64,000 nucleotides of DNA, taken from Blastococcus haudaquaticus. Its GTDB lineage: Bacteria; Actinomycetota; Actinomycetes; Mycobacteriales; Geodermatophilaceae. The stretch's first letter is position 1; every line of letters starts with the position of its first letter. Under the pieces are notes generated by a model. It was given only the letters and a program-made list of their open reading frames with translations. It was not told where the DNA came from and did not search any database. The stretch spans positions 992,001 through 1,056,000 of the forward strand of contig NZ_OCNK01000001.1 of the NCBI RefSeq assembly GCF_900230285.1, read 5' to 3'. Made by a program: the position numbers and the translations under genes. Below are positions 1,116 through 16,329 of the stretch, one piece after another.

Positions 1116-2324
1116 ATGCGCATCCTGCTCGTCGGTGCCGGTGGAGTGGGCGGAGCGATCACCTCGATCGCCGCCCGCCGGTCGTTCGTGGAGCACCTGG
1201 TCGTGGCCGACTACGACCCCGCCCGCGCCGACAAGGCCGTCGCCGCCACGGGGGACCCCAGGTTCGTGGCCGCGCAGGTGGACGCGACCGACGAGGCCGC
1301 GGTCGGGGCACTGCTGGCCGAGCACCGCTGCGACGCGCTGCTCAACGCGACCGATCCGCGGTTCGTCATGCCGCTGTTCCGGGCCGCCCTGGCCGCGGGG
1401 GTGCACTACCTGGACATGGCGATGTCGCTGTCCCGGCCGCATCCCGAGCGCCCCTACGAGGAGGTCGGCGTCAAGCTCGGCGACGAGCAGTTCGCCCTGG
1501 CCGCCGACTGGGAGGCCCGGGGGCGGCTGGCGCTGGTCGGCATCGGCGTGGAACCCGGGCTGTCCGACGTCTTCGCCCGCTACGCCGCCGACCACCTGTT
1601 CTCGGAGATCGACGAGCTGGGCGTGCGCGACGGGGCGGACCTGACGGTGCGGGGACACGACTTCGCGCCCTCGTTCAGCATCTGGACGACGATCGAGGAG
1701 TGCCTCAACCCGCCGGTGGTCTTCGAGCGGGATCGCGGCTGGTTCACCACGGCGCCGTTCAGCGAGCCCGAGGTGTTCGACTTCCCCGAGGGGATCGGCC
1801 CCGTCGAGTGCGTGAACGTGGAGCACGAGGAGGTGCTCCTCATGCCCCGCTGGGTCGACGCGCGCCGGGTGACGTTCAAGTACGGCCTCGGCGAGGAGTT
1901 CATCGACGTCCTCAAGACCCTGCACAAGCTCGGGCTGGACTCGACCACGCCGGTCCGCGTCGGCGGCGTCGAGGTGTCGCCGCGCGACGTCGTCGCCGCC
2001 TGCCTGCCGGACCCGGCCGGCCTCGGCGAGCTGATGGAGGGCCGGACCTGCGCCGGGCTGTGGGTGAGCGGCACCGGGACCGACGGCGAGCCACGGCAGG
2101 TCTACCTGTACCACGTGGTGGACAACGCCTGGTCGATGCGCGAGTACGGCGCCCAGGCCGTCGTCTGGCAGACGGCGATCAACCCGGTGGTCGCGCTCGA
2201 GCTGCTCGCCACCGGCGCCTGGCAGGGCGTGGGCGTGCTCGGCCCGGAGGCCTTCGACGCGGTGCCCTTCCTCGACCTGCTGACGGAGTACGGCTCCCCC
2301 TGGGGCATGCGCGAGGGGGGCTGA
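1116..2324 (+). CDS. Saccharopine dehydrogenase-like NAD(P)-dependent oxidoreductase
   Basis: 402-residue soluble enzyme of the saccharopine dehydrogenase / carboxynorspermidine dehydrogenase superfamily. The N-terminus MRILLVGAGGVGG is a Rossmann NAD(P)-binding motif, followed by the catalytic alpha/beta domain. Family members reduce or oxidise a C-N bond between an amino acid and an aldehyde- or keto-acid-derived partner. The ATG at 1116 is preceded by GGAGGT at 1105-1110; an in-frame upstream start at 1080 would add residues ahead of the Rossmann fold and is rejected. It converges on the GabT-like gene, with a shared terminator between them. The neighbourhood favours lysine or polyamine metabolism; the exact substrate cannot be read from sequence. 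Confidence 0.85.
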   Translation: MRILLVGAGGVGGAITSIAARRSFVEHLVVADYDPARADKAVAATGDPRFVAAQVDATDEAAVGALLAEHRCDALLNATDPRFVMPLFRAALAAGVHYLDMAMSLSRPHPERPYEEVGVKLGDEQFALAADWEARGRLALVGIGVEPGLSDVFARYAADHLFSEIDELGVRDGADLTVRGHDFAPSFSIWTTIEECLNPPVVFERDRGWFTTAPFSEPEVFDFPEGIGPVECVNVEHEEVLLMPRWVDARRVTFKYGLGEEFIDVLKTLHKLGLDSTTPVRVGGVEVSPRDVVAACLPDPAGLGELMEGRTCAGLWVSGTGTDGEPRQVYLYHVVDNAWSMREYGAQAVVWQTAINPVVALELLATGAWQGVGVLGPEAFDAVPFLDLLTEYGSPWGMREGG

Positions 2325-2354: not shown

Positions 2355-3713
2355 TCACCTGGCGGGCGCCAGCTCGTCGAAGACGGCGTCCAGGACGTCG
2401 AGCGCCTCGGTGAGCAGCTCCTGGCCGATGACCAGCGGGGGCAGGAAGCGCAGCACGTTGCCGAAGGTGCCGGCCGTGAGCGTCAGCACGCCCTGCGCGT
2501 GGCAGGCCTTGGCGATGCGGCCCGTGAGCTCCGCGTCCGGCTCGCTCGTCCCGGCCTTGACCAGCTCGACCGCCAGCATCGCGCCGCGGCCGCGGACGTC
2601 ACCGACCACCGACGTCCGCTCCTGCAGGGCCCGGAGCCGGGGCAGCATCGTGGCCTCGATGGCGCGCGCCGCCCCGGCGAGGTCCTGCTCGCGCATCGTG
2701 CGGATGGTGGCCAGGGCGGCGGCGCACGCCACGGGGTTGCCCCCGTACGTGCCCCCGAGCCCACCGGTGTGGACGGAGTCCATGAGCTCGGCCCGGCCGG
2801 TCAGCCCGGCCAGCGGCAGCCCGCCGGCGATGCCCTTGGCGGTGGTGACCAGGTCCGGCACGACGCCCTCGTGCTCGGAGGCGAACCAGGCACCCGTCCG
2901 GCAGAAGCCGGTCTGGATCTCGTCGGCGATGAACACCGCACCGGCCTCGCGGCTCCACTCGGCCAGCGCCGGGAGGAAGCCCGGCGCCGGGACGACGAAG
3001 CCGCCCTCGCCCTGGATCGGCTCGATGAGGACGGCGGCGACGTTGCCGGCGCCGACCTGGGTCTCGATCATCGCGATCGCGCGGGCCGCGGCCTGCTCCC
3101 CCGTCGTCCCCGGCTGGTCGCGGAACGGATAGGACATCGGCACCCGGTGGATGTCGGAGGCGAAGGGCCCGAAGCCGTCCTTGTAGGGCATGTTCTTCGC
3201 CGTCAGCGCCATCGTGAGGTTCGTCCGCCCGTGGTAGGCGTGGTCGAACACCACCACCGCGGTGCGCCCGGTGGCGTGCCGGGCCACCTTGACCGCGTTC
3301 TCCACGGCCTCGGCGCCGGAGTTGAACAGGGCCGACTTCTTCGCGTGGTCCCCGGGAGTGAGGGCGGACAGCTCCTCGCAGACGGCGACGTAGCCCTCGT
3401 AGGGCGTGACCATGAAGCAGGTGTGGGTGAACGCCGCGACCTGCGCCTGCACGGCGGCGACCACCGCGGGCGCCGCGTTGCCGACGTTGGTGACCGCGAT
3501 GCCCGAGCCGAGGTCGATGAAGGAGTTGCCGTCGACGTCGACGATCACGCCGCCGCCGGCGCGCTCGGCGTAGACCGGCATGGTGCTGCCGACGGCGGAG
3601 GTCACCGCGGCCGCACGCCGGTCGGCGAGCGCGCGGGAGCGGGGGCCGGGCACCTCGGTCACCAGGCGTCGCTCCTGGGCCAGCGTGTCGGGGCCGGTGA
3701 GCAGGTCGGTCAT
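2355..3713 (-). CDS. gabT: 4-aminobutyrate aminotransferase (class III, PLP)
   Basis: 452-residue PLP-dependent class III aminotransferase, expected to transfer the amino group of GABA or a related omega-amino acid to 2-oxoglutarate, giving succinate semialdehyde and glutamate. Visible motifs are NSGAEAVENA (131-140), IEPIQGEGGF (230-239), the PLP-binding ADEIQTGF with D264, and Schiff-base lysine K293 in TTAKGIAGG. The ATG at 3713 has a GAGGAG Shine-Dalgarno; the open frame continues upstream but lacks conserved sequence. It is divergent from the PucR regulator across a 139-bp region holding a large palindrome, so PucR control is likely. No gabD lies within the window. Specificity for GABA over 5-aminovalerate is inferred. 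Confidence 0.9.
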   Translation of the reverse strand: MTDLLTGPDTLAQERRLVTEVPGPRSRALADRRAAAVTSAVGSTMPVYAERAGGGVIVDVDGNSFIDLGSGIAVTNVGNAAPAVVAAVQAQVAAFTHTCFMVTPYEGYVAVCEELSALTPGDHAKKSALFNSGAEAVENAVKVARHATGRTAVVVFDHAYHGRTNLTMALTAKNMPYKDGFGPFASDIHRVPMSYPFRDQPGTTGEQAAARAIAMIETQVGAGNVAAVLIEPIQGEGGFVVPAPGFLPALAEWSREAGAVFIADEIQTGFCRTGAWFASEHEGVVPDLVTTAKGIAGGLPLAGLTGRAELMDSVHTGGLGGTYGGNPVACAAALATIRTMREQDLAGAARAIEATMLPRLRALQERTSVVGDVRGRGAMLAVELVKAGTSEPDAELTGRIAKACHAQGVLTLTAGTFGNVLRFLPPLVIGQELLTEALDVLDAVFDELAPAR

Positions 3714-3852: not shown

Positions 3853-5358
3853 GTGCCCGTCACCGTCGCCGGCCTGCTCGGCACCCCCTCGCTCGAGCTG
3901 AGGCTGCACACCCGCACCGCACCGGCGGACCGGCCGGTGTCGTGGGTGCACGTGAGCGAGCTGGCCGACCCGACTCCCTTCCTCGAGGGCGGCGAGCTGC
4001 TGCTCACCACCGGGCTCGCCCTGGCCCCCGGCGCCGCGGTCGGCGACTACGTGCGCCGGCTGGCCGACACGGGCGTGGTCGCCCTCGGCCTGGGCACCGG
4101 CCTGAGCCTCGCGGACGTGCCGGAGGAGCTGGTCACCGCCGCCGACGCCTGCGGCCTGGCGGTGCTCGAGGTCCCGAGACAGACCCCGTTCATCGCGTTG
4201 TCCCGGGCGGTCTCGGCCGCGCTGGCCGCCGACCAGTACGCGGCCGTCAGCCGCAGCTCGGCCGCGCAGCGGGAGCTCACCCGCGCGGCGCTGGCGGACG
4301 GCGGTCCGGGCGCCCTGGTCGACCGGCTGGCCGCGCTCATCGGGGGGTGGGCGCTGCTCTTCGACGCCGGGGGCGGTCTGCTGGCCGCCGCGCCGGCCGG
4401 CGCCTCGTCCCGGGCGGCGGGCCTGGCCGAGGAGATCGACCGGCTGCGCGGGCTGCGCGCTCCCGCCGGCGGCGCGGTGTCGCTGCCCGAGGAGACCGTG
4501 CTGGTGCAGTCCTTCGGCGCGCGGACGCGGGGTTTCCTCGCCGTCGGCCGGGGCGGACCGTTCCCCCCGGCCGACCGGCACGTCGTCAACGCCGCGGTCG
4601 CCCTGCTGACGCTGCGCATGGAGCAGTCGCGGTCCCTGGACACCGCGACGGCGACCCTGCACAGCGCCCTCCTGCGCCTGCTCCTCGCCGGGGAGGTCTC
4701 GACCGTCCGGCCGGTGGCGGAGGCGCTGGGGCACCAGCTGCCCGCGGAGCCGCTCCGGGTGCTCACCGTCCTGGGCACGGACGAGCAGCGCTCGGCCGCC
4801 GGCCACGTGGCGGCCGACGCCGCGACCCTCACGCGCGGGCACGTGTTCTCCGCGACCCAGGACGACGCCCTGGTCCTGGTGGTGTCCGACGACGGCGCGC
4901 TGGCCGACCGGCTGGGCGGCCTGCCCGGTCGGGTCGCGGGGGCAGCCGTCGGGATCTCCGCACCGGTGCCGTGGGCCCGGCTGACCGAGGGCGCCCGGCA
5001 GGCGCGGCAGGCGGCGGAGCAGAGCCGGACGACGGCCGGCCGGGTGACCGCGTTCCCCGACCTGGTGGGGCGAGGCCTGGCATCGGTGCTCGACCCGGAG
5101 CAGGTCGCGACCTTCGCCGAGGCGCTGCTCGCCCCCCTCGCGGCCGCCGACCGGGCCGGTCAGGGTGACCTGGTCGAGTCGCTGCGCGTGTGGCTGGCCC
5201 ACCACGGCCAGTGGGAGCCGGCGGCCGCGCGGCTGGGCGTGCACCGGCACACCCTCCGCAAGCGCATCCGCCGCGCCGGCGAGCTCCTCGGGCGGGACCT
5301 CGACTCCCCGGGTGCCCGGGCGGAGCTGTGGCTGGCGTTGCACCCACCCGTCAGGTGA
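3853..5358 (+). CDS. PucR-family transcriptional regulator
   Basis: 501-residue regulator. The N-terminal PucR domain (about residues 1-125) contains the typical WVHVSELADPTPFLEGGELLLTTG region, here split for brevity into WVHVSELADPTPFL and GGELLLTTG. A central GGDEF-like/CdaR region follows, and the C-terminus is a PucR/CdaR helix-turn-helix (AARLGVHRHTLRKRI) near residue 465. The GTG at 3853 is chosen because homology begins there; the longer open frame crosses the divergent promoter. PucR-type proteins often activate adjacent catabolic genes in response to the substrate, so gabT is the likely target. The effector is unknown. Confidence 0.85.
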   Translation: MPVTVAGLLGTPSLELRLHTRTAPADRPVSWVHVSELADPTPFLEGGELLLTTGLALAPGAAVGDYVRRLADTGVVALGLGTGLSLADVPEELVTAADACGLAVLEVPRQTPFIALSRAVSAALAADQYAAVSRSSAAQRELTRAALADGGPGALVDRLAALIGGWALLFDAGGGLLAAAPAGASSRAAGLAEEIDRLRGLRAPAGGAVSLPEETVLVQSFGARTRGFLAVGRGGPFPPADRHVVNAAVALLTLRMEQSRSLDTATATLHSALLRLLLAGEVSTVRPVAEALGHQLPAEPLRVLTVLGTDEQRSAAGHVAADAATLTRGHVFSATQDDALVLVVSDDGALADRLGGLPGRVAGAAVGISAPVPWARLTEGARQARQAAEQSRTTAGRVTAFPDLVGRGLASVLDPEQVATFAEALLAPLAAADRAGQGDLVESLRVWLAHHGQWEPAAARLGVHRHTLRKRIRRAGELLGRDLDSPGARAELWLALHPPVR

Positions 5359-5415: not shown

Positions 5416-6462
5416 TCAGGTGAAGGCGGGCATCACTTCGTCGTGCAGCAGCTGCAGCTGCTCGTCGACGGTGGCGACCCCCGGGACGTCGCGCCCGGTG
5501 AAGGCCTTGACCAGCGACGCGTCGGTGATGGCGGCGATGAGGTGGTTGACCCCGGACGGCTCGATCTCCTTGATCTTCGCCGTCACCTCCTCCGGGGTGC
5601 CCGCGAAGGACAGCTTCTCCGCGATCTCCGGCGTCGTCAGCTCGATCCCCTTGGCCAGGTCCCCGGCACCGATCGCCTCGATGATCGGCGTGAGGCTGTC
5701 GGGATCGACGCCGTTGCGCTCGAGCTGCTCCGCCGGCATGGACGACGCGTAGATGCCGACCATGCTGCGCGCCGCATCCTTCGCCGCCGCCGAGTCACGA
5801 CCCACGGCGAGCACCACCCAGGCTCCGAAGTCCAGCGTCGTCCAGTCCTTGCCGGCCCGGTCCGCGCCGATCCGCAGGTGCTCGGCCGCGTAGTCGTAGG
5901 CCTCGCGGGTGTAGCTCAGGGCGTGGTGGCAGCCGTCGGAGTGCTCGGCCGAGGCCTCGAAGGACTTCGGCCCCCGCATGGCGCCCATCTTCACCGGCAC
6001 CCGCTCCTGCACCGGCCGCGCGAACGTGAACAGCCCGTTGTACTGGAAGAACTCGCCGTCGAAGGTGATCGCGCCGTCGTCGAGCAGCGTGCGGATCACC
6101 TGGACGCCCTCGATGACGCGTGACAGCGGCTTGGTGTTCTTCCAGTCGATGCCGTACTGGGCGAGCAGCCCGAAGTTGCCGCTCGACAGCACCACCTCGG
6201 CGCGCCCGCCGGTCAGCTCGTCCAGGGTGGCGGTCGCCTGGGCGATGAGCGTCGGCTCCCGGAGCACGACGCCGGACACGCTCGGCCCGAACCGGATGTT
6301 CGACGTCTGCTGGGCAGCGGCGGCGAACAGCAGCCACATGTCCTTGTGCCACGTCTCGTCGGCGGCGTAGCAGGCGTGGAACCCCAGCTCGTCCGCCAGC
6401 CGGATGGACCTCAGCGACTCCTCGAGCGGGTAGTCCGGGAGCATGACATAACTGAACCTCAT
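5416..6462 (-). CDS. LLM-class F420/flavin-dependent oxidoreductase
   Basis: 348-residue luciferase-like monooxygenase-fold enzyme starting MRFSYVMLPDYPLEESL, with the family's (beta/alpha)8 pattern. It is closer to the F420-dependent methylenetetrahydromethanopterin-reductase-like branch than to FMN alkane monooxygenases, judged from the GPSVSGVVLREPTLIAQATA stretch. Expected cofactor is F420 or FMNH2; substrate unknown. The ATG at 6462 has Shine-Dalgarno GAGGAG and overlaps the stop of the upstream permease by ATGA, so the two are translationally coupled. This suggests the enzyme acts on whatever the permease imports. Confidence 0.82.
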   Translation of the reverse strand: MRFSYVMLPDYPLEESLRSIRLADELGFHACYAADETWHKDMWLLFAAAAQQTSNIRFGPSVSGVVLREPTLIAQATATLDELTGGRAEVVLSSGNFGLLAQYGIDWKNTKPLSRVIEGVQVIRTLLDDGAITFDGEFFQYNGLFTFARPVQERVPVKMGAMRGPKSFEASAEHSDGCHHALSYTREAYDYAAEHLRIGADRAGKDWTTLDFGAWVVLAVGRDSAAAKDAARSMVGIYASSMPAEQLERNGVDPDSLTPIIEAIGAGDLAKGIELTTPEIAEKLSFAGTPEEVTAKIKEIEPSGVNHLIAAITDASLVKAFTGRDVPGVATVDEQLQLLHDEVMPAFT

Positions 6463-8006
6463 CGCATCTCCTCACGTGCCTGGGCGCGGGCCTCGGGCGA
6501 GGCACCGCCTCGGATCTGCTGCAGCTGTCGCGCCACCTCGCGGGCGTCGCCCTCGGGGATGTGCGCAGAATGCCGGTCCGGCCGGGCCAGGGCCAGGTAC
6601 AGCAGCCCGCTCCCCGCGACGACGGCGAGCCCGATGGCGACGATCCAGCGGTCGAGGAAGGTCTCGGTACCCGGTGCCGGCTTGATCAGCAGGACGATCG
6701 CGAAGATGCCGTAGGCCAGCGCGAGGACGTTGACGACGAGCCCGGCGGTGCCCAGGTTCCACAGGCCGGCGGGCCGCCAGCCCTTGAGCCGCTGGCGCAG
6801 CGCAGCGAGCACCACGGCCTGGAAGGAGACGTAGATGCCGAGCACGGCGAAGGCCGTGACGCGCGCCAGGATGCCTTCCTGGAAGTAGACGAACAGCGCG
6901 ATCAGGACCGGGACGACGCAGACGACGAGCAGCGCGTTGGTCGGGACGGCGTGCCGGGACGAGACGTGCGAGAGCCAGCCGCTGGCCGGCAGCATGCGGT
7001 CGCGGGCGAAGGCGTAGAGCAGCCGGCTGCCCGCGGCCTGCAGGGACAGCACGCAGGAGAGGAAGGCGACGACGGTGACGACCAGGAAGACCTTCGAGCC
7101 CGCCGTCCCCAGGGAGTTCTCGAGGATCGAGGGGATGGGGTCGGCGTCCTCCCCGCTGATGATCGCCGGCAGGTCCGGTGCCGCCAGCACGTAGCCGGCG
7201 TAGGAGACGAAGCCGGAGACACCGCCGACCACGATGGTGAGGATCATGGCGCGCGGGATCTGCCGGGTCGGGTCGGCGACCTCCTCTGCCACGTCCCCAC
7301 AGGCCTCGAAGCCGTAGAACAGGAAGAGCCCGGAGAGCGAGGCGGCCAGGAAGACCCCGAGGTAGCCGTCTCCCCCACCGGCCCCGAGCGAGTCGAAGAA
7401 GACCGAGAACGGCTGCTCGCGGCGGAACAGCAGCAGGAAGAGGCCGAGGGCGATGACGCCGATGAGCTCGGCGAGCAGGCCGATCTGGGCGATCCGGGCC
7501 AGGTTGCGGGTGCCGCTGTAGTTGACCGCGAAGGCGACGACCAGCAGGGCCACCGCGGTCGCGAGCACGACCGCCGGGGTCGCCTCCAGGTCGAACAGGG
7601 CGGCGACGAACCCGCCGCCGAACTCGGCGACGGCGGTGATGGTCACGATGACCGCCCAGATGTAGATCCAGGAGACGATCCAGGCGTACCGCCGGTTCCA
7701 CAGCCGTCGTGTCCACGGGTAGATGCCGCCGGCCAGGGGGTACTGGGAGACGACCTCACCGAAGACGAGCGCCACCAGCAGCTGGCCGACGCCCACGATC
7801 ACGATCCACCAGATCGCCGGCGGCCCGCCGATCGACAGGCTGTAGGCGAACAGCGAGTACACGCCGACCAGCGGCGAGAGGTACGTGAAGCCGAGGGCCA
7901 TGTTCGCCCACAGACCCATGCTGCGGTGGAACTCGCCCGAGTAGCCGAGCGCGGCCAGCTGGGCCTCGTCGTCGATCGGACCGGGGGGTGATCCGGGTGC
8001 GGTCAC
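6459..8006 (-). CDS. APC-family amino acid/amine permease
   Basis: 515-residue, about 12-helix APC-superfamily transporter of the eukaryote-like GABA/choline permease branch (FHRSMGLWANMALGFTYLSP near the start, then GGIYPWTRRLWNRRYAWIVS). The GTG at 8006 follows GGAGG 5-6 nt upstream. Its stop overlaps the LLM start, so one message makes importer and oxidoreductase. Upstream on the same strand are the Cache protein and the GntR regulator, separated by a 155-bp gap that contains its own promoter-like AT-rich stretch. Substrate not readable; the relatives I know carry GABA, amino acids or choline-like amines. Confidence 0.88.
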   Translation of the reverse strand: MTAPGSPPGPIDDEAQLAALGYSGEFHRSMGLWANMALGFTYLSPLVGVYSLFAYSLSIGGPPAIWWIVIVGVGQLLVALVFGEVVSQYPLAGGIYPWTRRLWNRRYAWIVSWIYIWAVIVTITAVAEFGGGFVAALFDLEATPAVVLATAVALLVVAFAVNYSGTRNLARIAQIGLLAELIGVIALGLFLLLFRREQPFSVFFDSLGAGGGDGYLGVFLAASLSGLFLFYGFEACGDVAEEVADPTRQIPRAMILTIVVGGVSGFVSYAGYVLAAPDLPAIISGEDADPIPSILENSLGTAGSKVFLVVTVVAFLSCVLSLQAAGSRLLYAFARDRMLPASGWLSHVSSRHAVPTNALLVVCVVPVLIALFVYFQEGILARVTAFAVLGIYVSFQAVVLAALRQRLKGWRPAGLWNLGTAGLVVNVLALAYGIFAIVLLIKPAPGTETFLDRWIVAIGLAVVAGSGLLYLALARPDRHSAHIPEGDAREVARQLQQIRGGASPEARAQAREEMR

Positions 8007-8081
8007 GCAGCCTCCTGCAAAGGGGTGGAGCGGCCGACGGCGGATGCCGGGTGTGCCGCAGCCCACACGAACGCCGGGAAA

Positions 8082-8108
8082 CCTATAGATACAGAGTTCA
8101 CAGGACAA
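8082..8108 (-). promoter_or_regulatory. Possible promoter/operator before permease-LLM operon
   Basis: The region is unusually A+T-rich for this genome. On the minus strand, TTGTCC (8108-8103) is followed 15 bp later by TATAGG (8087-8082). The spacer is short, so this could equally be a regulator site. Confidence 0.35.
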
Positions 8109-8161
8109 GACCGCAGCGTTGCGATCTCGTTGCATGTGGCCCTGGCCGGGTGCCCGCGCGG

Positions 8162-8881
8162 TCAGGCCCTCAGGAGCGTCGCGTCGCCGACCAGGTGCAA
8201 CCGCCACGGGACGCCGGGGACGCCGGCACCGGCCCCCAGCGGATCGGCGCCCCGGGGCAGCAGGCTGCCGACCAGCCGCCGGGGTGCGGTCGACAGGACT
8301 ACGCGGTCCTCGTCGTTGAGCAGCACGAAGGGGGCGGGGAGCCCGCCCAGGAGCGCCAGCAGGTGGTTCTCGAACCGGCGCACCGACACGTCGGCACCCA
8401 CGACCCCGACGAACTCGCCGTCGACGACGACGGGCTCGGTCAGCGTCAGCAGGTAGCGGCCCGTCCCGTGCACGTCGACGTAGGGGCCCACCACGTGCCG
8501 GCGGCCGGTACGCCGGGGGACGTCGAACCACTCCGTGGCCGTGTAGTCGTAGTACCCGAGGCTGGTGGGCCGGAGGTCGGGCTCCAGGCTGCGCAGGGGA
8601 CCGCCGCCGGGGTCGAGCTGCCACCACTCCAGGCGCAGCGGGAGCTCCTCGTCCGGGCGGGGTGCCACCACCAGGCCCAGCCCGACCGCGAGCTGGCCCG
8701 GCGCGTGCAGCAGCTCGCGGACGTCGTGGTCGAGGACCGTGCCACCGGTGTGCAGGCCGTCCCGCGCCGCCGGTCGCCGGACGGCGGCGTGCACCTGGGC
8801 GACCGTGCCGAAGACCTGCTCGACCACGTCGGAGACCGCGGCACGGACGCGCGCGATCTCCCGCCCCCCGGGCGACGTCAC
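8162..8881 (-). CDS. Soluble stand-alone Cache-domain protein
   Basis: 239-residue protein matching the extracellular-sensor Cache/PDC fold: YYDYTATEWFDVPRR, the GPYVDVHGTGRYLLTLTEPV core strand region and VVGADVSVRRFE are all visible at residues about 110-175. There is no signal peptide, membrane helix, kinase, HTH or cyclase domain, so it should be cytoplasmic and act only by ligand binding. The GTG at 8881 overlaps the GntR stop (GTGA) and has GGGAGG upstream, so it is made stoichiometrically with that regulator. A co-sensor or ligand carrier for GntR is an inference; no enzymatic motif is seen. Confidence 0.75.
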   Translation of the reverse strand: MTSPGGREIARVRAAVSDVVEQVFGTVAQVHAAVRRPAARDGLHTGGTVLDHDVRELLHAPGQLAVGLGLVVAPRPDEELPLRLEWWQLDPGGGPLRSLEPDLRPTSLGYYDYTATEWFDVPRRTGRRHVVGPYVDVHGTGRYLLTLTEPVVVDGEFVGVVGADVSVRRFENHLLALLGGLPAPFVLLNDEDRVVLSTAPRRLVGSLLPRGADPLGAGAGVPGVPWRLHLVGDATLLRA

Positions 8882-9690
8882 GACACCTCCCGCGCGGCGA
8901 CGGCGCCGTCCCCGCCCGCCCGCAGGCGCAGCTCGATCGACCACAGCGTGCGGGTCTCGATGTGCTCCTCGGTGAGCCGCCGTGCCAGGCCGCCGTCCCG
9001 GTCCTCGATCGCGTCCACCACCGCCCGGTGCCCGGCGACCATCACGTCGAGCAGCCCCGGATCGGAGGCGGGCGGCCACGGCAGCTGGCCGAGCTCGAGG
9101 TGCAGGTCCATGACCTGCATCGTCAGCCGCACGGACTGCGCGCAGGCGGCCAGCTCGATGAAGTACCGCCCCTCGGCGCGCCGCTGGCCGGTGACGGAGT
9201 CGGCGATCGCCAGCCGGTCGACGATGTCGCGCAGCCGGGCGATCTCGGTACGCGAGGCCCGGCCGGCGGCGAGCCGGGCCGCGGCCGCGGAGACCGCCCC
9301 GTGCACGTCGCCCAGCTCGCGCAGGTCGGTGGTCCCCAGCTCGGCCAGCCGGGCGTCGGCCAGCTCGCCCAGGACGTCGTCCCGCGCCCGGACGAAGCTG
9401 CCGCCGCCCCGGCCGCGCCGGGTGACCACCAGGCCGAGCTTGCGCAGCTCCGCGAGCGCCTCCCGCAGCGTCATCGTCGAGACGTTGAGCATGGTGGCCA
9501 GATCGGCCTCCGGAGGCAGCTGCTCGCCGTCGCCGAGGAGGCCGAGCGCGATCGCGCTCCCGACGCGGCGCACGACCGCCTCGCTGCGGAGGGCGCCGTC
9601 GTCCAGCGGCGAGAAGACCGCACGACGGGCGTCACCGCTGAGCAGTTGCACGCACGCCTCCCGCCGGCCGGATGCCGCCAAGTGTTGCAC
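8878..9690 (-). CDS. GntR/FadR-type transcriptional regulator (FCD domain)
   Basis: 270-residue GntR-family DNA-binding protein. Its winged helix lies at about residues 37-105 (LPPEADLATMLNVSTMTLREALAELRKLGLV), followed by an all-helical FCD effector domain (about 120-255) with the metal/ligand-type segments typical of FadR subfamily repressors. The start codon at 9690 is GTG. It is divergent from the FeS/FAD operon (start 9780) and translationally coupled to the Cache protein downstream. It probably represses both divergent units until a carboxylate- or amine-type substrate appears. Confidence 0.85.
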   Translation of the reverse strand: MQHLAASGRREACVQLLSGDARRAVFSPLDDGALRSEAVVRRVGSAIALGLLGDGEQLPPEADLATMLNVSTMTLREALAELRKLGLVVTRRGRGGGSFVRARDDVLGELADARLAELGTTDLRELGDVHGAVSAAAARLAAGRASRTEIARLRDIVDRLAIADSVTGQRRAEGRYFIELAACAQSVRLTMQVMDLHLELGQLPWPPASDPGLLDVMVAGHRAVVDAIEDRDGGLARRLTEEHIETRTLWSIELRLRAGGDGAVAAREVS

Positions 9691-9712
9691 CAGCGATACC
9701 CGTTCTTAACCG

Positions 9713-9741
9713 TTGATTCCATAGGTTTTGGCCGTTAGCGT
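9713..9741 (+). promoter_or_regulatory. Promoter of the FeS-FAD oxidase operon
   Basis: TTGATT (9713-9718) and TAGCGT (9736-9741) are spaced exactly 17 bp, giving a leader of about 33 nt with GAGGAG before the GTG at 9780. AT-rich bases just upstream (CGTTCTTAACCGTTGATT) are a candidate GntR site. Confidence 0.55.
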
Positions 9742-9779
9742 GGCCCCCACCACTCAGCCCCCTGTGACGAGGAGCACCA

Positions 9780-11276
9780 GTGACACAGGTCGAGCCGGAC
9801 CGCGCCGCCGAGGCGGACGCACTGTCCCGCCCCTTCACACCCGGGGCGCCGTCCAACCCACCCGAGCTGGCGGACTTCCCCGAGACCCTCGCCGGCCCGG
9901 TGCCTCCGCCGCGCCAGGACCCGAGGACCGCCGCGTTCGTCGAGCAGTGGCGCAACGCCTCGTACAACTGCTACTCGTCCGGGCACAAGTTCTGCCGCGA
10001 GGTCTGCCCGGTCACCCAGGTCGAGCGCAACGAGTCGTGGACGCCGACCGCGTTCCACGCCAACGTCGTGGCCATGGAGCGCGGTGAGCTCGACATCGAG
10101 GACATCGCGGCCGACTACGTCAACTGCACGCAGTGCGGCGCCTGCGAGCTGCGCTGCCCCAACACGCTCTTCACCGGCGACTTCTACCGGTTCCGCACCC
10201 GTACCGTCGACGTGGTCAAGGCGGTGCGGTCCCTCGCCGTGGAGAGCGGCATCCACCAGCCGAACTGGCAGATCTGGAACGAGCGCACCGATCTGCGCAC
10301 GCACGAGCCGGTCCTGGGCGAGACGCCGGTGAACCAGGAGAAGGTCCGCGACTGGGCCGAGGGGCTCGATCTCCCGATCGGCGGTGAGACGGTCCTGTTC
10401 GTCGACTGCGAGGCGGCGTTCTACCGGACGTCCGTGCCGCGGGCGGTGGCCCAGATGCTGCAGCTGGCCGGCTACGAATTCGGGCTCATGGAGGACCAGT
10501 GGTGCTGCGGCGGCCCGGCCGCCGAGATGGGCTACGCCGACCAGGCCCAGCGCTTCGCCCGCCACAACCTGGACAACTGGCGGAAGACGGGCACGAAGCG
10601 GCTGCTGGTGCTCGACCCGCACGACTACATCAGCTTCACCGAGGACTACCCGAAGTACTTCGGCGAGGAGTTCGACATCGAGGTCGTGCTCGTCATCGAG
10701 GTGCTGGCCCAGCTGCTGCGTGCGGGGAAGCTGACCCCGTCGGTCCCGGTGGACCGGGCGATCACCTACCACGACCCGTGCCGGCTCAACAAGCGCAAGG
10801 GCATCTGGGAGGAGCCCCGCGAGCTGCTCCGCGCCATCCCGGGGCTGAAGTTCGAGGACGTCGACCGGGTGACCCAGTGGTCCTACTGCTCCGGCGGTGG
10901 CGGCGGGCTGCCGATCGAGAAGCCCGAGCTCACCGCCAAGATCAGCGCGATGCGGCTGGAGCGGGCCGCGGAGCTCGACGTCGACACGCTGGTCAGCGCC
11001 TGCCCGTGGTCGGAGCGGCCGCTGAGCGAGGCCGGTGACGCCGAGGACATCGACGTCGTCGACCTGCACGAGCTGTTCGCGCAGTCGCTCGGGATCACCG
11101 TCGGCGGGTCCCGCGGCGACGTCGGCGACCGGCGGCTGGCCCAGGAGCGCACCGGCGTCCCGGGGCGGGCGCGGCGGGAGCACGGCAGCAGCCGCGGTGG
11201 CTGCGGCGGTGGTGGCGGGGGCTGCGGCGGCGGGTGCGGGAACGGTTCCGGCGGCTGCGGGTGCGGGGGGCACTGA
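9780..11276 (+). CDS. (Fe-S)-binding CCG-domain oxidoreductase subunit with Gly/Cys-rich tail
   Basis: 498-residue GlpC/LldE/HdrD-like electron-transfer subunit. An N-terminal ferredoxin-type region has C64, C72, C76 and then C116, C119, C122, C126 (NCTQCGACELRCPN). Two cysteine-rich CCG-like regions follow (DQWCCGGPAAEMGY near 240, and YCSGGGGGLPIEKPEL with CPWSERPL near 370-420). The last ~30 residues are almost only glycine with five cysteines, which I do not know from the family. The GTG start at 9780 has a GAGGAG Shine-Dalgarno. The FAD oxidase begins 2 bp after its stop, so the two very likely form one oxidoreductase that passes electrons to the respiratory chain. Confidence 0.85.
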   Translation: MTQVEPDRAAEADALSRPFTPGAPSNPPELADFPETLAGPVPPPRQDPRTAAFVEQWRNASYNCYSSGHKFCREVCPVTQVERNESWTPTAFHANVVAMERGELDIEDIAADYVNCTQCGACELRCPNTLFTGDFYRFRTRTVDVVKAVRSLAVESGIHQPNWQIWNERTDLRTHEPVLGETPVNQEKVRDWAEGLDLPIGGETVLFVDCEAAFYRTSVPRAVAQMLQLAGYEFGLMEDQWCCGGPAAEMGYADQAQRFARHNLDNWRKTGTKRLLVLDPHDYISFTEDYPKYFGEEFDIEVVLVIEVLAQLLRAGKLTPSVPVDRAITYHDPCRLNKRKGIWEEPRELLRAIPGLKFEDVDRVTQWSYCSGGGGGLPIEKPELTAKISAMRLERAAELDVDTLVSACPWSERPLSEAGDAEDIDVVDLHELFAQSLGITVGGSRGDVGDRRLAQERTGVPGRARREHGSSRGGCGGGGGGCGGGCGNGSGGCGCGGH

Positions 11277-11278
11277 CC

Positions 11279-12850
11279 ATGACGATCACCGAACCGGCCG
11301 GGCCCATCGGCACCGCGCCCTTCACCACCGAACCACTCAGCGACGACCGCCTCACCGCCCTGGTCCGGGCGCTGCGACCGGTCCTGGCCGACGACCAGAT
11401 CCTGCTCGCCAAGACCGACCGCTACAACCGCGCCCGCGTGCCGGCGCCGTTCCCGGTGCACCGGTGGGCCGAACGGGTGCCCGACGTCGTGGTCATGCCC
11501 ACCTCGACCGAGCAGGTGGCCGCGGTGGTGAGGATCGCCAACGAGATGCGCATCCCGGTCGTCCCGCGGGACGGCGGCACGGGGCTGACCGACGGCGCGG
11601 TCCCCCACCGCCGCGGGATCGTCGTCGACGTCAAGAAGATGAACCAGATCCACGAGCTGGACCTGGTCAACCGGACCGTGACGGTCGGCACCGGCATCAG
11701 CATGATGAAGCTCAACGAGCGGTTGGCCAAGCACGGGCTCTTCTATCCCGACGACCCGGCGTCCTACCCGTGCTCGCTGGTGGGAGGGAGGATCGGCACC
11801 AGCGGCTGGTCGCTCATCGGCTCCCGGTACGGGCACACCCGCGACCTCGTGCTCAGCTTCGACCACGTGCTGCCCACCGGCGACGTCCTGCATGTCGGCG
11901 ACGGCATCGGCCGGAAGATCAGCAAGTCCTCCAGCGGCTACTCCCTCAAGCACCTGTTCATGGGCCACCAGGGCACGCTGGGCATCGCCACGAAGGCGAC
12001 GCTCAAGTTGTTCCCCAAGCCGGAGGCCGAGCTCTCGCCGTTCTGGGCGTTCGACAACTACGAGGACGCCCACGCCTGCACGGGTGCGCTGGCCCGTGCC
12101 GGGGTGGCGACCTTCGCCGGCGCCGTCCTCTTCGACGAGCACAAGGTTGCCTACCTGCGTCGCGACGACGAGGCCTACATCCCGCAGCCGGCCGACGTCC
12201 GGGCGCTGGTCTGCTCGGTCATGTACGGCTACGAGGACGAGGTGCGGGCCGGCGGCAAGCGGCTGTTCCGCATCGCCAAGGAACACGGCGCCCGCTACCT
12301 CGGCGACGAGATCTCCGAGGGCGACTGGGCGGCCCGGCACGACCGGTACGCCACGCCGCTGCACGGGCGGACCAAGGACGGCCAGGTCATCCCGATGTCC
12401 TGGCACTGCGAGGACGCCGCGGTCAACTTCTCCGCCGTCCCGGCGGTCAGCCGGGCGTGGCACGAGATCCTGGCCGACCTCCGGCGCAAGACCGACGTCT
12501 TCGACGACTGGGGCATGTTCGCCTACACCTCCGCCGCCACCGGGGTCGACTACCTGACCGAGATCGACGTCGGCATCTGGGAGCAGCGCCTGGACGACAA
12601 GGCCTGGGCGGCATGGGTGAAGGCCAAGCGGGACATCGGCGCGGTGGCGCTCGCCCACGGCGGCTCGATGAGCGCCTGCCACGGCTCCTGCCGGGAGGGC
12701 GAGGTGGACCTGGTGCCCGAGGAGCTCGGCCGCGGCTTCGACGTGATGCTCGACGTCAAGCGGTCCCTGGACCCGAACAACATCATGAACCCGGGCAAGT
12801 ACCTGCTGGACCGCGCGTACGGGAGGGACACCACCGATGAGAACCGATGA
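11279..12850 (+). CDS. FAD-binding (VAO/GlcD-type) oxidoreductase
   Basis: 523-residue flavoprotein: PP-loop FAD-binding domain (about residues 60-240, with RDGGTGLTDGAVPHRRG) and FAD-linked oxidase C-terminal domain ending SLDPNNIMNPGKYLLD. Homologues oxidise 2-hydroxy acids, D-amino/hydroxy acids or alkyl ether precursors. The usual GGSISGEHGIG active-site signature is replaced by GGSMSACHGSCREG, so the substrate probably differs. The ATG at 11279 is 2 bp after the FeS subunit stop, and the 3' end overlaps the small protein by 14 bp. Likely a membrane-associated or cytosolic dehydrogenase complex with the FeS subunit. Confidence 0.85.
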   Translation: MTITEPAGPIGTAPFTTEPLSDDRLTALVRALRPVLADDQILLAKTDRYNRARVPAPFPVHRWAERVPDVVVMPTSTEQVAAVVRIANEMRIPVVPRDGGTGLTDGAVPHRRGIVVDVKKMNQIHELDLVNRTVTVGTGISMMKLNERLAKHGLFYPDDPASYPCSLVGGRIGTSGWSLIGSRYGHTRDLVLSFDHVLPTGDVLHVGDGIGRKISKSSSGYSLKHLFMGHQGTLGIATKATLKLFPKPEAELSPFWAFDNYEDAHACTGALARAGVATFAGAVLFDEHKVAYLRRDDEAYIPQPADVRALVCSVMYGYEDEVRAGGKRLFRIAKEHGARYLGDEISEGDWAARHDRYATPLHGRTKDGQVIPMSWHCEDAAVNFSAVPAVSRAWHEILADLRRKTDVFDDWGMFAYTSAATGVDYLTEIDVGIWEQRLDDKAWAAWVKAKRDIGAVALAHGGSMSACHGSCREGEVDLVPEELGRGFDVMLDVKRSLDPNNIMNPGKYLLDRAYGRDTTDENR

Positions 12851-13157
12851 CCAGCCGACGGGCCCGTCCGCCAGCGCGCCCTACCGCTTCGCCGAGCAGC
12901 ACACCCCGCCGGCGCCGGTGCGGGTGAGCGAGGTGGCGCAGACCACCTTCGAGCACGTCTACGAGGTCGACCCGCGGCTGATGGAGGTGCACGTCCTCCA
13001 GCAGGTGTTCCCCAACTGGGACACCCTCCGGATCATGCGCAGCCGGGCGGACCACCTCGCCTGGATGCACACGCACTTCGCGGAGAAGGTCATCACCGGG
13101 TCGGAAATCCTGGCGGAGATCGAGCGCGAGAGCACGCCGGTACCACCACCCCTCTAG
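12837..13157 (+). CDS. Small conserved-context protein of the FeS/FAD operon, unknown function
   Basis: 106-residue hydrophilic protein with no recognised domain, signal peptide or membrane helix. After a disordered Pro-rich start (to about residue 25) there is a compact alpha/beta-looking part containing FEHVYEVDPRLMEVHVL and a C-terminal helical segment. The ATG at 12837 lies inside the end of the FAD oxidase gene (14-bp overlap) with GGGAGG about 10 nt upstream, so it is co-translated. A third subunit, assembly factor or product-binding protein of the oxidase is plausible but unproven. Confidence 0.7.
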   Translation: MRTDDQPTGPSASAPYRFAEQHTPPAPVRVSEVAQTTFEHVYEVDPRLMEVHVLQQVFPNWDTLRIMRSRADHLAWMHTHFAEKVITGSEILAEIERESTPVPPPL

Positions 13158-13259: not shown

Positions 13260-14705
13260 GTGAGCGACAAGCTGGAGCTGCAGAACTTCGTCGGCGGCGA
13301 GCACGCCGGCACCGCCGACGGCCACCGGATGGACCTGGTCGACCCGAGCACCGGCGAGGTCTTCGCGTCCGCGCCGGTCTCCGGGGCGGAGGACGTCGAC
13401 CGCGCCTACCGCGTGGCCGCCGACGCCTTCGAGACCTGGCGGGACACCACCCCGTCGGAGCGGCAGCAGGCGCTGCTGAAGCTCGCCGACGCGGTCGAGG
13501 AGCACGCCGAGGAACTGGTCGCGCTGGAGAGCCGCAACACCGGCAAGCCGATCGGCCTGACCGCCTCGGAGGAGATCCCCCCGATGGTCGACCAGATCCG
13601 GTTCTTCGCCGGGGCGGCCCGCACCCTGGAGGGCAAGGCCGCGGCCGAGTACATGGCCGGGCACACCAGCTGGGTCCGCCGCGAGCCGATCGGCGTCGTG
13701 GGCCAGGTGACGCCGTGGAACTACCCGATGATGATGGCGGTCTGGAAGATCGCGCCGGCGCTGGCGGCCGGCAACACCGTCGTCCTGAAGCCGTCGGACA
13801 CCACCCCCGCGACGACGCTGCGGCTGGCCGAGCTCGCCGCCGACATCCTCCCCGCGGGCGTCCTCAACGTCGTCTGCGGCGACCGCGACACCGGCCGGGC
13901 GCTGGTCGAGCACAAGGTGCCCCAGCTCGTGGCGATCACCGGCTCCGTCCGGGCCGGCATGGAGGTGGCCGGCGCCGCGGCCAAGGACGTCAAGCGGGTG
14001 CACCTGGAGCTGGGCGGCAAGGCGCCGGTCGTCGTCTTCGACGACGCGGACCTGGAGGCGGCCGCCGAGGCGATCGCCGTGGCCGGCTACTTCAACGCCG
14101 GCCAGGACTGCACCGCCGCCTCCCGCGTGCTGGTCGCCCCCGGCATCCACGACGACTTCGTGGCGGCGCTGACCGAGCAGGCGAGGAACACCGCCACCAC
14201 GTACGCGAACGGCGCCACGGACGAGGACGCCATGGTGCCGCCGGTGAACAACGCCAACCAGCTCGCCCACGTCACCGGCTTCCTCGACCGGGCACCCGAC
14301 CACGCGGAGATCACCGCCGGCGGCCACCGGCAGGGCGACCGCGGCTTCTTCGTCGAGCCCACCGTCGTCGCCGGGCTGCGGCAGGACGACGAGATGGTGC
14401 AGCGGGAGATCTTCGGCCCGGTCATCACCGTGCAGCGGTTCACCGACGAGGACGAGGCGGTGCGCTGGGCCAACGGCGTCGAGCTCGGCCTGGCCTCCAG
14501 CGTGTGGACGAAGGACTTCGGCCGGGCCATGCGGATGAGCAAGCGGCTGGACTTCGGGTGCGTGTGGATCAACACCCACATCCCGCTCGTGGCCGAGATG
14601 CCCCACGGCGGGTTCAAGCACTCCGGGTACGGCAAGGACCTGTCGATGTACGGGCTCGAGGACTACACCCGCATCAAGCACGTCATGGCCAACATCGAGA
14701 GCTGA
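13260..14705 (+). CDS. Gamma-aminobutyraldehyde/betaine-aldehyde-type dehydrogenase
   Basis: 481-residue NAD(P)-dependent aldehyde dehydrogenase. Catalytic residues are all present: N154 in TPWNYP, E250 in VHLELGGKAP and C284 in FNAGQDCTAASR. Overall similarity is to the 4-aminobutyraldehyde (PatD/PuuC) and betaine aldehyde group. With the copper amine oxidase and GabT nearby, oxidation of 4-aminobutyraldehyde to GABA is the natural role. The GTG start at 13260 follows AGGAA. A strong hairpin ends transcription immediately downstream. Confidence 0.88.
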   Translation: MSDKLELQNFVGGEHAGTADGHRMDLVDPSTGEVFASAPVSGAEDVDRAYRVAADAFETWRDTTPSERQQALLKLADAVEEHAEELVALESRNTGKPIGLTASEEIPPMVDQIRFFAGAARTLEGKAAAEYMAGHTSWVRREPIGVVGQVTPWNYPMMMAVWKIAPALAAGNTVVLKPSDTTPATTLRLAELAADILPAGVLNVVCGDRDTGRALVEHKVPQLVAITGSVRAGMEVAGAAAKDVKRVHLELGGKAPVVVFDDADLEAAAEAIAVAGYFNAGQDCTAASRVLVAPGIHDDFVAALTEQARNTATTYANGATDEDAMVPPVNNANQLAHVTGFLDRAPDHAEITAGGHRQGDRGFFVEPTVVAGLRQDDEMVQREIFGPVITVQRFTDEDEAVRWANGVELGLASSVWTKDFGRAMRMSKRLDFGCVWINTHIPLVAEMPHGGFKHSGYGKDLSMYGLEDYTRIKHVMANIES

Positions 14706-14796: not shown

Positions 14797-16329
14797 TCAG
14801 TCCTCGAACACCAGCGCCGGGGTGTCGGTGCGCAGCGTCTCGCCCCGGAAGAACTCCGGGTGCTTGGCCCGCCACACGAGCATGAGCACGGCGCCCAGCA
14901 GGAGCAGGCCGATGCCGATGACGAAGACGCTGCCGACGCCGAACACCGACGACCCGCTGCCGTACGCCGGGTCGAGCGTGTCGACGGCGGTCTGCACGAA
15001 CACCGCCGTGAGCATCACCGCCCCCAGCAGGGGGAACACGCCCTTGAAGACCAGGTCGCGGGCGCTGCGGGTCAGCTCGCGCCGGAAGTACCAGACGCAG
15101 GCGTAGGCGGTCAGGCCGTAGTAGAAGCAGATCATCAGGCCGAGTGCGTAGATCGTGTCGATGAGGACGTTCTCGCTGATCAGCGTCATCCCGACGTAGA
15201 AGACCGCGGTGCCGATGCCGGACGCCAGGGTCGCGGTGGACGGCGTCAGGAAGCGCGGGTGCACGTCGCCGAACCGCTTCGGGATCGCCCCGTAGGTGCC
15301 CATCGCCAGCAGGGTGCGGGCCGGCGGCAGGAACGTCGTCTGCAGCGACGACGCCGAGCTGGCGACCACGGCGAGGAAGAGCAGGAACGCCAGGCCCGTG
15401 CCCATCACCGGGTCGGCGAGCGCGGCGAAGACGTTGGCCCCCGTGTCCTCGTTGCCGAGGCCGGTGCCCTCGTCCCCGATGCCGGCGTACATCTGCACGG
15501 CGATCGCGGTCACCAGGTAGGTCACGACGATGACCGCCATGGACAGCAGCGCCGCCCGGCCCGGCGTGCGCGCGCTGCCGGAGGTCTCCTCGTTGACCGT
15601 CAGGCAGGTGTCCCAGCCCCAGTAGATGAACAGCGAGAGGGAGAGCCCCGCGGTGAAGGCGCTGAACGAGCCGATCGCGGTCGGGTCGAGCCAGGACAGC
15701 TCGAACGGGATGCTGTCGGGCGCCGAGCCGGTCTTCGCCAGCGCGAGCACCACGAACAGGGCGAGCACCGCCATCTGGAAGCCGACCAGGACGTACTGCA
15801 CGCGCTTGGTGGTCTGCACGCCGCGGTAGGCCACCCAGGTGGCCAGGGCGACGAACGCCACGCAGGTGAGGACGTTGACGAGCTTGTTGCCGCCCAGGTC
15901 CGCCAGCCACGCCGACCCGGTCAGCTCGCCCAGGAGCAGGTAGAAGAAGGAGACGGCGACCCCGGCGAGGCTGGACAGCACGATGATCGTCGCCAGCAGC
16001 GCACCCCAGCCGGCGAGCCAGCCGACGTAGGGGTTGAAGGCCTTGGTCGCCCACGTGAAGGACGTCCCGCAGTCCGGCGCGACGCGGTTGAGCTCCCGGT
16101 AGGCGTAGGCCACCAGCAGCATCGGCAGGAAGCCGGCGAGGAAGATCGCCGGCATCTGCAGCCCCACCTCGGTGACGGTCGGACCGAGGGTGACGGTGAG
16201 CGCGTACACCGGCGCGATGCTGGAGACGCCGAGCACGACGCTGGCCAGCAGGCCGACGGAGTTCTTCGACAGGCCCTTCGCGCGGAGGTCGCCGGCCGGT
16301 GCGACCGGGGCGTGGGGGTCGAGCGACAT
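14797..16329 (-). CDS. APC-family amino acid/polyamine permease
   Basis: 510-residue multi-helix APC transporter, similar in layout to the permease at 1-1005 (LNRVAPDCGTSFTWATKAFN here against LNRVDPDCGTTFSWVTRAMG there; WGWDT motif). It probably imports an amine or amino acid used by the divergent agmatinase/amine oxidase operon. The ATG at 16329 has AAGGA 8 nt upstream and begins MSLDPHAPVAP; the open frame extends upstream without conserved sequence. A 330-bp gap, shared with the agmatinase promoter, lies before it. Confidence 0.88.
   Translation of the reverse strand: MSLDPHAPVAPAGDLRAKGLSKNSVGLLASVVLGVSSIAPVYALTVTLGPTVTEVGLQMPAIFLAGFLPMLLVAYAYRELNRVAPDCGTSFTWATKAFNPYVGWLAGWGALLATIIVLSSLAGVAVSFFYLLLGELTGSAWLADLGGNKLVNVLTCVAFVALATWVAYRGVQTTKRVQYVLVGFQMAVLALFVVLALAKTGSAPDSIPFELSWLDPTAIGSFSAFTAGLSLSLFIYWGWDTCLTVNEETSGSARTPGRAALLSMAVIVVTYLVTAIAVQMYAGIGDEGTGLGNEDTGANVFAALADPVMGTGLAFLLFLAVVASSASSLQTTFLPPARTLLAMGTYGAIPKRFGDVHPRFLTPSTATLASGIGTAVFYVGMTLISENVLIDTIYALGLMICFYYGLTAYACVWYFRRELTRSARDLVFKGVFPLLGAVMLTAVFVQTAVDTLDPAYGSGSSVFGVGSVFVIGIGLLLLGAVLMLVWRAKHPEFFRGETLRTDTPALVFED

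Follow-up and report, generated by a model that had tools for sequence, protein, structure and literature searches.

What is the function of the seven genes that form two divergent units at positions 5416 to 13157 of a 64,000-nucleotide stretch (the window) of the Blastococcus haudaquaticus genome (4.5 Mb)? The sequence-only reading of this window had proposed an undescribed catabolic system, and all seven genes are present with the positions and strands that it gave. The minus strand encodes an oxidoreductase of the luciferase-like monooxygenase (LLM) class (5416..6462; Bac_luciferase), an APC amino acid/amine permease (6459..8006; AA_permease_2), a stand-alone soluble Cache protein predicted to be an intracellular amine sensor (8162..8881; MCP-like_PDC_1/dCache_1, with a dCache_1 score that falls below the Pfam cut-off of that family) and a GntR/FCD regulator (8878..9651, alternative start 9690). 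The plus strand encodes an iron-sulfur (FeS) subunit with two 4Fe-4S type motifs, two CCG-type domains and a Gly/Cys-rich tail (9780..11276), a flavin adenine dinucleotide (FAD) subunit of the VAO/PCMH type (11279..12850; FAD_binding_4 plus FAD-oxidase_C) and a small third protein of 106 amino acids belonging to a conserved family (12837..13157). We give an even chance to the reading that these genes constitute a module for the inducible catabolism of a biogenic amine, most probably a diamine or polyamine or a close derivative.

Do these genes belong together? An alignment of the FeS subunit (A1) was scanned over the contigs of GTDB species, which gave 133 confirmed relatives, of which the best 80 loci were kept. 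Since these loci were fetched by the FeS protein alone, their neighbours could be counted without selection for them. The gene caller used was tuned to G+C-rich genomes and called the FeS gene in 77 of the 80 loci; a locus from Desulfobacterota (L045) that it did not call was read from the list of open reading frames. The FAD gene lay directly beside the FeS gene on the same strand in 76 of the 80 loci, the FeS, FAD and small genes were contiguous in 71, and an LLM gene was found anywhere in the locus in 61. When only the 52 of these loci in which gene calls extended over 6.5 kb or more to either side were considered, the FAD gene was present anywhere in the locus in all 52, the small gene in 49, LLM in 43, the permease in 36, Cache and GntR in 32 each, an aldehyde dehydrogenase (ALDH) in 23, the gamma-aminobutyrate (GABA) transaminase gene gabT in 11 and a PucR-type regulator in 8. 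In an enlarged set of 87 loci (the 80 and seven obtained otherwise, including the apparent duplicates L029/L040 and L033/L105) the corresponding counts were FAD 85, FeS 84, small protein 77, LLM 68, GntR 46, Cache 46, permease 45, ALDH 32, gabT 15 and PucR 11; four more, diverged Cache proteins formed a separate cluster. The counts in the 80 FeS-fetched loci and in the 52 well-flanked ones rule out a chance neighbourhood, and the taxonomic spread of the 80 loci rules out a curiosity restricted to one family. The co-occurrence that had been proposed is therefore observed well beyond the relatives of this genome, with the small protein almost always beside the FeS and FAD subunits. FeS, FAD, small protein and LLM are the core of the module, which together with its neighbours is almost certainly co-functional.

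One could instead suppose that the two divergent units share only their regulator and serve different substrates, the FeS/FAD/small set being a redox side module. Many loci do carry FeS-FAD-small-LLM without GntR, Cache, permease or ALDH, some of them being cut by contig ends. However, the LLM gene, which belongs to the left unit in the window, lies in the direction of the FeS operon and at most five genes from FeS in 48 of the 80 loci, and in Prauserella, Actinomadura and others both the permease and the ALDH gene are found within the FeS operon. We consider such a separation of the two units very improbable.

A frequent order is FeS-FAD-small-permease-(ALDH)-LLM, with 4-bp overlaps and with GntR-Cache divergent. 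Loss of the neighbourhood in related genomes had been named beforehand as refuting the proposed system; the neighbourhood is conserved, but it is patchy, as the FeS gene (E <= 1e-60) was found in 8 of 61 genomes of relatives, own genome included (3 of 16 in the genus, 5 of 21 in other genera of the family and 0 of 24 in the rest of the order). Relatives of the small protein occurred in 8 of the 296 genomes of a phylum sample. The nearest FeS relatives come from Blastococcus and Geodermatophilus, and most module loci are from Actinomycetota, with three from Chloroflexota and one, on a draft contig, from Desulfobacterota; these latter loci display the module regardless of binning. In a quick tree of the FeS protein, whose midpoint root serves drawing only, the Chloroflexota, Desulfobacterota, Euzebyaceae, Kribbella and most Thermoleophilia sequences fell outside the large Cache-bearing group, mostly with the core four genes only. 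Among them, the Kribbella locus (L041) has gabT and ALDH genes adjoining LLM-FeS-FAD-small, and the Desulfobacterota locus carries gabT, ALDH, FeS, FAD, small protein, permease and LLM, while the Microlunatus loci L086 and L092 carry gabT with a gene resembling succinate-semialdehyde dehydrogenase (SSADH). As Kribbella and Desulfobacterota stand in tree groups apart from each other, from Geodermatophilaceae and from Microlunatus, the link with GABA transaminase recurs. Eight ALDH genes were scanned (window, L041, L045, L048, L057, L066 twice, L095), and all except that of L045 passed the cut-off of the aminobutyraldehyde-type model NF010000. In Actinophytocola (L066), the region beyond the Cache gene contains the second of its two aminobutyraldehyde-type dehydrogenases and an ABC transporter whose ATPase passes the potA model (401.9 vs 355.6).

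Several loci depart from this pattern. An NCS1 (cytosine/purine-type) permease, assigned by Pfam for L027 and by eye for the other two, replaces the APC permease at L027:7967-9427, L045:11523-12942 and L138:1930-3372. A 28.7-kb linear plasmid record of Georgenia (NZ_CP094291.1, L017), which ends inside the FAD gene, has GntR/Cache/FeS/FAD beside a gene resembling FMN-binding glutamate synthase. Four loci from Mycolicibacterium and Nocardioides (L048, L049, L051, L052), all from a tree group of eight FeS rows that have no LLM beside them, carry an FeS/FAD variant with two genes resembling 2,4-diaminopentanoate dehydrogenase, together with an acyl-CoA synthetase, an ammonium transporter and the aminobutyraldehyde-type dehydrogenase, one member of each having been scanned; this variant is perhaps a sister pathway for another amine.

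Which compound does the module respond to? A profile of 25 members of the Cache family, searched against the PDB, gave as top matches 6fu4 (2.1e-9), which we take to be TlpQ, and 9kp3 (2.4e-9), with McpU 6f9g in sixth place (1.1e-7). The match to 7prq, presumably PctD, spans only the later part of the profile. Six TlpQ residues taken from PMC6234866 (Tyr158, Glu170, Tyr208, Asp210, Lys211, Asp239) land on matching letters of 6fu4 with one constant offset, and in the available part of that paper Y208, D210 and D239 are described as holding the primary amine of the ligand. Their counterparts in the window protein are Y134 (conserved in 46 of 50 sequences), D136 (50/50) and D164 (50/50), the last of which also matches D235 of the published amine motif. 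The site of the carboxylate-binding Arg of PctA (R126) corresponds to Cache position 116, which is Ala in 36 sequences, Thr in 9, Met in 4, Ser in 1 and Arg in none of the 50. The sandwiching aromatics of the amine motif (PctD W155, F188, then Y189) have counterparts in W86, W118 and F/Y119, each in 50/50 sequences, in a register taken from the alignments to TlpQ and PctA. At the sites of M215 and S217, matched by spacing only, position 144 is hydrophobic in 49/50 and position 146 is Thr, not Ser, in 50/50. A membrane-spanning stretch is unusual in this family (best 19-residue Kyte-Doolittle value: median 1.45, maximum 2.27, n = 50). By its sequence, this soluble Cache protein is related to the polyamine receptors TlpQ and McpU, with amino-acid receptors close behind. 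A stand-alone intracellular dCache_1AM protein beside a transcription factor has been reported in Actinobacteria, according to the available part of PMC10104139, and the window protein is best seen, from its sequence, as part of a regulator of this published type. We regard it as quite probable that GntR and Cache form an amine-sensing regulator. The sequence-only reading had suggested one nitrogen-containing substrate for the whole system; from the Cache residues and the gene context this substrate is very likely an amine, with the Cache protein acting as part of the regulator.

The surroundings of Cache proteins outside the module bear on the same question. A close Cache protein was present in 7 of the 296 phylum genomes, at eight places. 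Two of these genomes, that of the window and G080, have the FeS/FAD genes; the other five had no match to the small protein. Of the six places in these five genomes, three (L137, L139, L142) have GntR/Cache in divergent orientation to an ABC transporter that combines an ATPase passing the polyamine model potA (362.9, 368.3 and 364.2 vs 355.6) with a YdcS-like binding protein below its cut-off; at L142 there are in addition an SSADH-like gene and a GABA transaminase (635 vs 506.65). L140 has the permease of the module (67% identity) with an SSADH-like gene, and L138 has a gene resembling glutamine/gamma-glutamylputrescine synthetase, below cut-off. At L141, no polyamine transporter or GABA/amine gene was detected and no GntR gene was called. 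Altogether, five of the six non-module places adjoin polyamine-type ABC transporters or GABA/amine genes. At L138 (5760-8432), genes which by eye resemble ferredoxin reductase, ferredoxin and P450 adjoin the GntR/Cache pair and the glutamine-synthetase-like gene.

In the window itself, the module is surrounded by further genes of amine metabolism. A GABA transaminase (GabT; 2355..3713, minus strand; TIGR00700 575.8 bits vs cut-off 506.65) lies on one side. On the other, 102 bp after the small gene, an ALDH of the aminobutyraldehyde type begins (13260..14705, plus strand); it passes NF010000 (716.5 vs 615 bits) and misses the stricter model TIGR03374 (565.2 vs 909.3 bits). This is followed by a second APC permease, assigned by family match (14797..16329, minus strand), an agmatinase (16660..17688, plus strand; TIGR01230 177.2 vs 174.3 bits) and a copper primary-amine oxidase (17685..19580, plus strand; NF008559 917.8 vs 651 bits). 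The ALDH had been proposed as the end of the route; it does belong to the locus, which continues, however, to GabT, agmatinase and amine oxidase. By what is established about the families of agmatinase, amine oxidase, ALDH and GabT, their presence around the module points to agmatine and putrescine breakdown. A gamma-glutamylpolyamine synthetase was not found among the genes scanned between window positions 1 and 19580, the rest of the genome not having been searched. On the GabT side of the module there are also a PucR-type regulator (3853..5358, plus strand) and a saccharopine dehydrogenase-like protein (1116..2324, plus strand; 5 of the 87 loci, window included) whose best NCBIfam model, carboxynorspermidine synthase, is far from its cut-off (162.1 vs 800). 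Conversion of a polyamine or diamine into a GABA-like product is on balance the probable route.

A different biogenic amine, such as ethanolamine, choline or another amino alcohol, or a small methylated amine, would also be compatible with part of these data. In this case the flavoprotein would oxidise the hydroxyl group or a derived alpha-hydroxy acid, and GabT and ALDH would be enzymes of broad specificity. In tests described in the available part of PMC10104139, ethanolamine, choline and methylamines evoked responses from amine-type Cache domains, the nearest solved relatives of the FAD subunit oxidise hydroxyl groups, and most loci are devoid of GabT. However, the nearest Cache structures are polyamine and histamine receptors, gabT and the aminobutyraldehyde-type dehydrogenase recur in distant lineages, the GntR/Cache pair is found elsewhere beside potA-type transporters, and the hydroxyacid EHG motif is changed. 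We consider a substrate of this kind unlikely, and retain the diamine or polyamine as the preferred one.

What could the FeS, FAD and small proteins catalyse? Among solved structures, the FAD subunit comes closest to D-lactate dehydrogenases, LctD and glycolate oxidase, and the FeS subunit resembles GlpC, LdhH and TfrB. Both were far below the equivalog cut-offs: TIGR00387 (GlcD) gave 208.1 vs 567.9 bits for the FAD subunit, and the FeS subunit scored 87.9 vs 278 for GlpC, 41 vs 333 for GlcF and 87.4 vs 800 for LdhH. Hydroxyacid flavoproteins have an EHG motif near the C terminus, in which Glu is a metal ligand, and a H-x-x-G-D-G-N-x-H motif. In 85 FAD sequences EHG aligns with CHG (C467 in 95%, H468 in 98%), and the region of the second motif reads, by eye, W-H376-C-E-D-A-A-V-N383. 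The presumed metal site would be His/Asn/Cys, instead of the presumed His/His/Glu. The FeS subunit has the motif C64-x4-H69-x2-C72-x3-C76-P followed by C-x2-C-x2-C-x3-C-P, and its second CCG-type domain is CSG in 84 of 84 sequences. A conserved His occupies a position where Cys is usual in the first of these motifs (window 9969-10007, residues 64-76) in 95% of the 84 sequences. The Gly/Cys-rich tail (window 11170-11273) was seen in the window, L033 and L038, and was absent from the five other rows of their alignment.

Against Pfam (to E 10), NCBIfam and the PDB sequences, the last with both the single sequence and a profile, the 106-residue protein gave chance-level matches or none. M49, R65, R70 and L74 are invariant in 52 sequences, the apparent duplicates L028 and L058 both being included. 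Its AlphaFold model (mean pLDDT 80.6, pTM 0.34) shows a hairpin and helices with no confident overall fold; it would fit a docking subunit and tells little else.

A plain respiratory hydroxyacid dehydrogenase was rejected on the lost EHG motif and the missed cut-offs. The functional kinship with such enzymes that the sequence-only reading had drawn does not hold at these scores and with CHG in place of EHG, and the analogy is weak as judged from sequence. A more specific version would make the FeS/FAD/small set a 2-hydroxyacid dehydrogenase of the GlcDF or D-lactate/2-hydroxyglutarate type acting at a late step, with 4-hydroxybutyrate or a 2-hydroxy acid as possible substrates, in line with the best matches of both subunits. 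The shortfall against the equivalog models, the Cys in place of Glu and the CSG of the second CCG-type domain all speak against this version, which we hold to be quite improbable. Oxidation of the amine by these proteins is part of our preferred reading, and we put it somewhat below even chances: they are the most conserved redox core, and this step is otherwise missing where ALDH and GabT are present.

Does the LLM protein use F420? Its residues 1-311 align with Mer (2.5e-61 for the best PDB match), and its nearest solved relatives are F420 enzymes of this kind, although the Mer model itself is not reached (TIGR03555, 188.2 vs 348.7 bits). From these matches we infer an F420 enzyme rather than a user of flavin mononucleotide. 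The F420 gene cofD was matched in 47 of 48 module genomes, 44 of them over the cut-off, and in 209 of the 296 genomes of the phylum sample, 156 over the cut-off; the 48 genomes derive from 47 of the 80 loci and three others, two loci sharing a genome and one genome being left out. The sole genome of the 48 without cofD, G380, is also without LLM. Nineteen genomes or records were searched for LLM (E <= 1e-40), most of them selected for a locus from which LLM was absent or cut off, G000 and G358 being included as carriers; it was found in 7 and not in 12. Among the seven are G516 (L055) and G360, the latter with the copy of its second module (L065). Within Microbacterium, the genus of G378, the FeS gene was present in 2 of 119 genomes, both with cofD, and cofD in 69 of 119, a comparison within one genus that is uninformative about F420 dependence. 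In a Chloroflexota draft (L043:4134-5204) the LLM gene is split into two reading frames.

The sequence directly gives the gene set, its conservation, the ALDH, GabT, agmatinase and amine oxidase families and the amine-type residues of the Cache protein, from which the following route can be proposed. The APC permease would import the amine, which the soluble Cache protein would bind in the cytoplasm and, with GntR, relieve repression at the shared divergent promoter. A complex of the FAD, FeS and small proteins would oxidise the amine, or a compound derived from it, and its FeS clusters would relay the electrons to an acceptor; the LLM protein would contribute an F420-linked reaction to this route. 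The omega-aminoaldehyde so formed would be converted by the aminobutyraldehyde-type dehydrogenase into an omega-amino acid (GABA in the case of putrescine), which GabT would feed to the tricarboxylic acid cycle. In the window, the copper amine oxidase could share or replace the amine oxidation. The first and last steps rest on protein families and context; the middle ones, carried out by FeS/FAD/small and LLM, we infer, together with the ligand, induction, complex formation and F420 use. The full combination, namely a cytoplasmic amine dehydrogenase with a remodelled His/Asn/Cys site, an F420-dependent LLM and an intracellular polyamine-binding Cache/GntR switch, is a tentative and rather doubtful proposal.

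Several observations weigh against an amine pathway of this kind. PctC and PctA, which are receptors for amino acids, took ranks three to five in the Cache search (1.1e-8 to 3.9e-8), only about tenfold weaker than TlpQ, so that the ranking alone does not separate amine from amino acid. The Tyr/Asp/Asp set is also found in PctC and PctA, and it is thus the absent Arg that favours an amine. No conserved counterpart of the R103/D133 pair of the published amine motif was identified in the 50 Cache sequences. The nearest solved relatives of the FAD subunit act on hydroxy acids, and from its family the copper amine oxidase of the window could oxidise the amine alone. GabT and ALDH are present in a minority of the 87 loci, suggesting that the end of the pathway may vary with the host or lie elsewhere. 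LLM does not adjoin the FeS gene in any of the eight rows of one tree group (support 99, on a long branch), three of which end at contig edges. As module bearers belong mostly to F420-rich lineages, the cofD contrast is not independent evidence; moreover G070, whose FAD and small genes lie alone at a contig edge, has LLM on another contig and no cofD match, which speaks against F420 use or reflects a gap in the draft. Finally, the Chloroflexota and Desulfobacterota loci are draft contigs of 4-15 kb for which wrong binning is possible.

The regulatory part of the proposal concerns the region between the two units. The sequence-only reading had these meet at 9691-9779. They do diverge, but the reading frame of GntR is kept only from the GTG at 9651 in 14 aligned Geodermatophilaceae-type sequences, which makes this start more likely than 9690 and extends the shared promoter region to about 9652-9779. 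A candidate operator AACC-N12-GGTT (9708..9727, no strand assigned) is largely kept in these 14 sequences. Of 43 divergent promoter regions, 17 contained another pattern, TATG-N4-CATA, as against a mean of 0.01 and a maximum of 1 in 200 runs of a first-order Markov control; none of the Geodermatophilaceae-type regions had it, AACC-N12-GGTT being largely conserved there instead. Since some of the 43 come from close relatives and the pattern was chosen from those very data, it is a lead only. Within the units, the tight packing of FeS, FAD and small genes described earlier was confirmed (spacing of 2 bp, then an overlap of 14 bp), whereas the stop/start overlaps claimed throughout the GntR-to-LLM unit exist at LLM/permease and at Cache/GntR (4 bp each) and are interrupted by a 155-bp gap between Cache and permease.

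In searches of an open-access library we recognised no description of this gene set, and we know of no earlier amine catabolism linked to F420. There is a real chance that the module, within amine catabolism, contains a new enzyme type. If the proposal is true, it would add a route for the breakdown of polyamines or related amines, give a function to an unnamed small protein family and to two orphan redox subunits in Actinomycetota and beyond, and set the stand-alone, intracellular Cache proteins of amine type reported in Actinobacteria in a physiological context. As it involves a single sensor, a single divergent promoter, a short operon and few ligands, it is directly open to experiment.

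Comparison with known systems places the module as follows. GlcDEF, LutABC, GlpABC and the D-lactate and D-2-hydroxyglutarate dehydrogenases likewise combine a VAO-type FAD and/or a CCG-type FeS subunit as partners; here, the cut-offs of the GlcD, GlcF, GlpC and LdhH models are not reached, EHG is CHG and the third protein is a new small family. The LLM protein is like Mer, the F420-dependent methylenetetrahydromethanopterin reductase, over residues 1-311, but has about 37 extra C-terminal residues and falls below the Mer cut-off, and its hosts are not known methanogens. For polyamines, PMC9397018, which reviews polyamine and ethanolamine metabolism in bacteria, lists five routes in its available part: gamma-glutamylation, aminotransferase, direct oxidation, spermine/spermidine dehydrogenase and acetylation. 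The terms F420 and iron-sulfur have no occurrence in its main text, and none of the routes is described there with an FeS/FAD/small complex or an F420 enzyme, so that FAD/FeS/small with an F420-dependent LLM would, if true, be a sixth route; the aminobutyraldehyde dehydrogenase and GabT that close the aminotransferase route are common to both. With the published Actinobacterial type (PMC10104139) the window shares a soluble Cache protein in a two-gene set with a GntR-type regulator, the aromatic and Asp residues and the missing Arg of the amino-acid motif. It may differ in the R103/D133 pair, of which no counterpart was identified in this Cache family, and it differs in that the available part of that paper predicts amine sensing without a link to this enzyme set. 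Compared with TlpQ and McpU, finally, the window Cache protein, of about 240 residues, is without membrane part or signalling domain, but it has in common with them, as far as described in the available part of PMC6234866, the Tyr/Asp/Asp residues that hold the primary amine and the Trp upstream of them.

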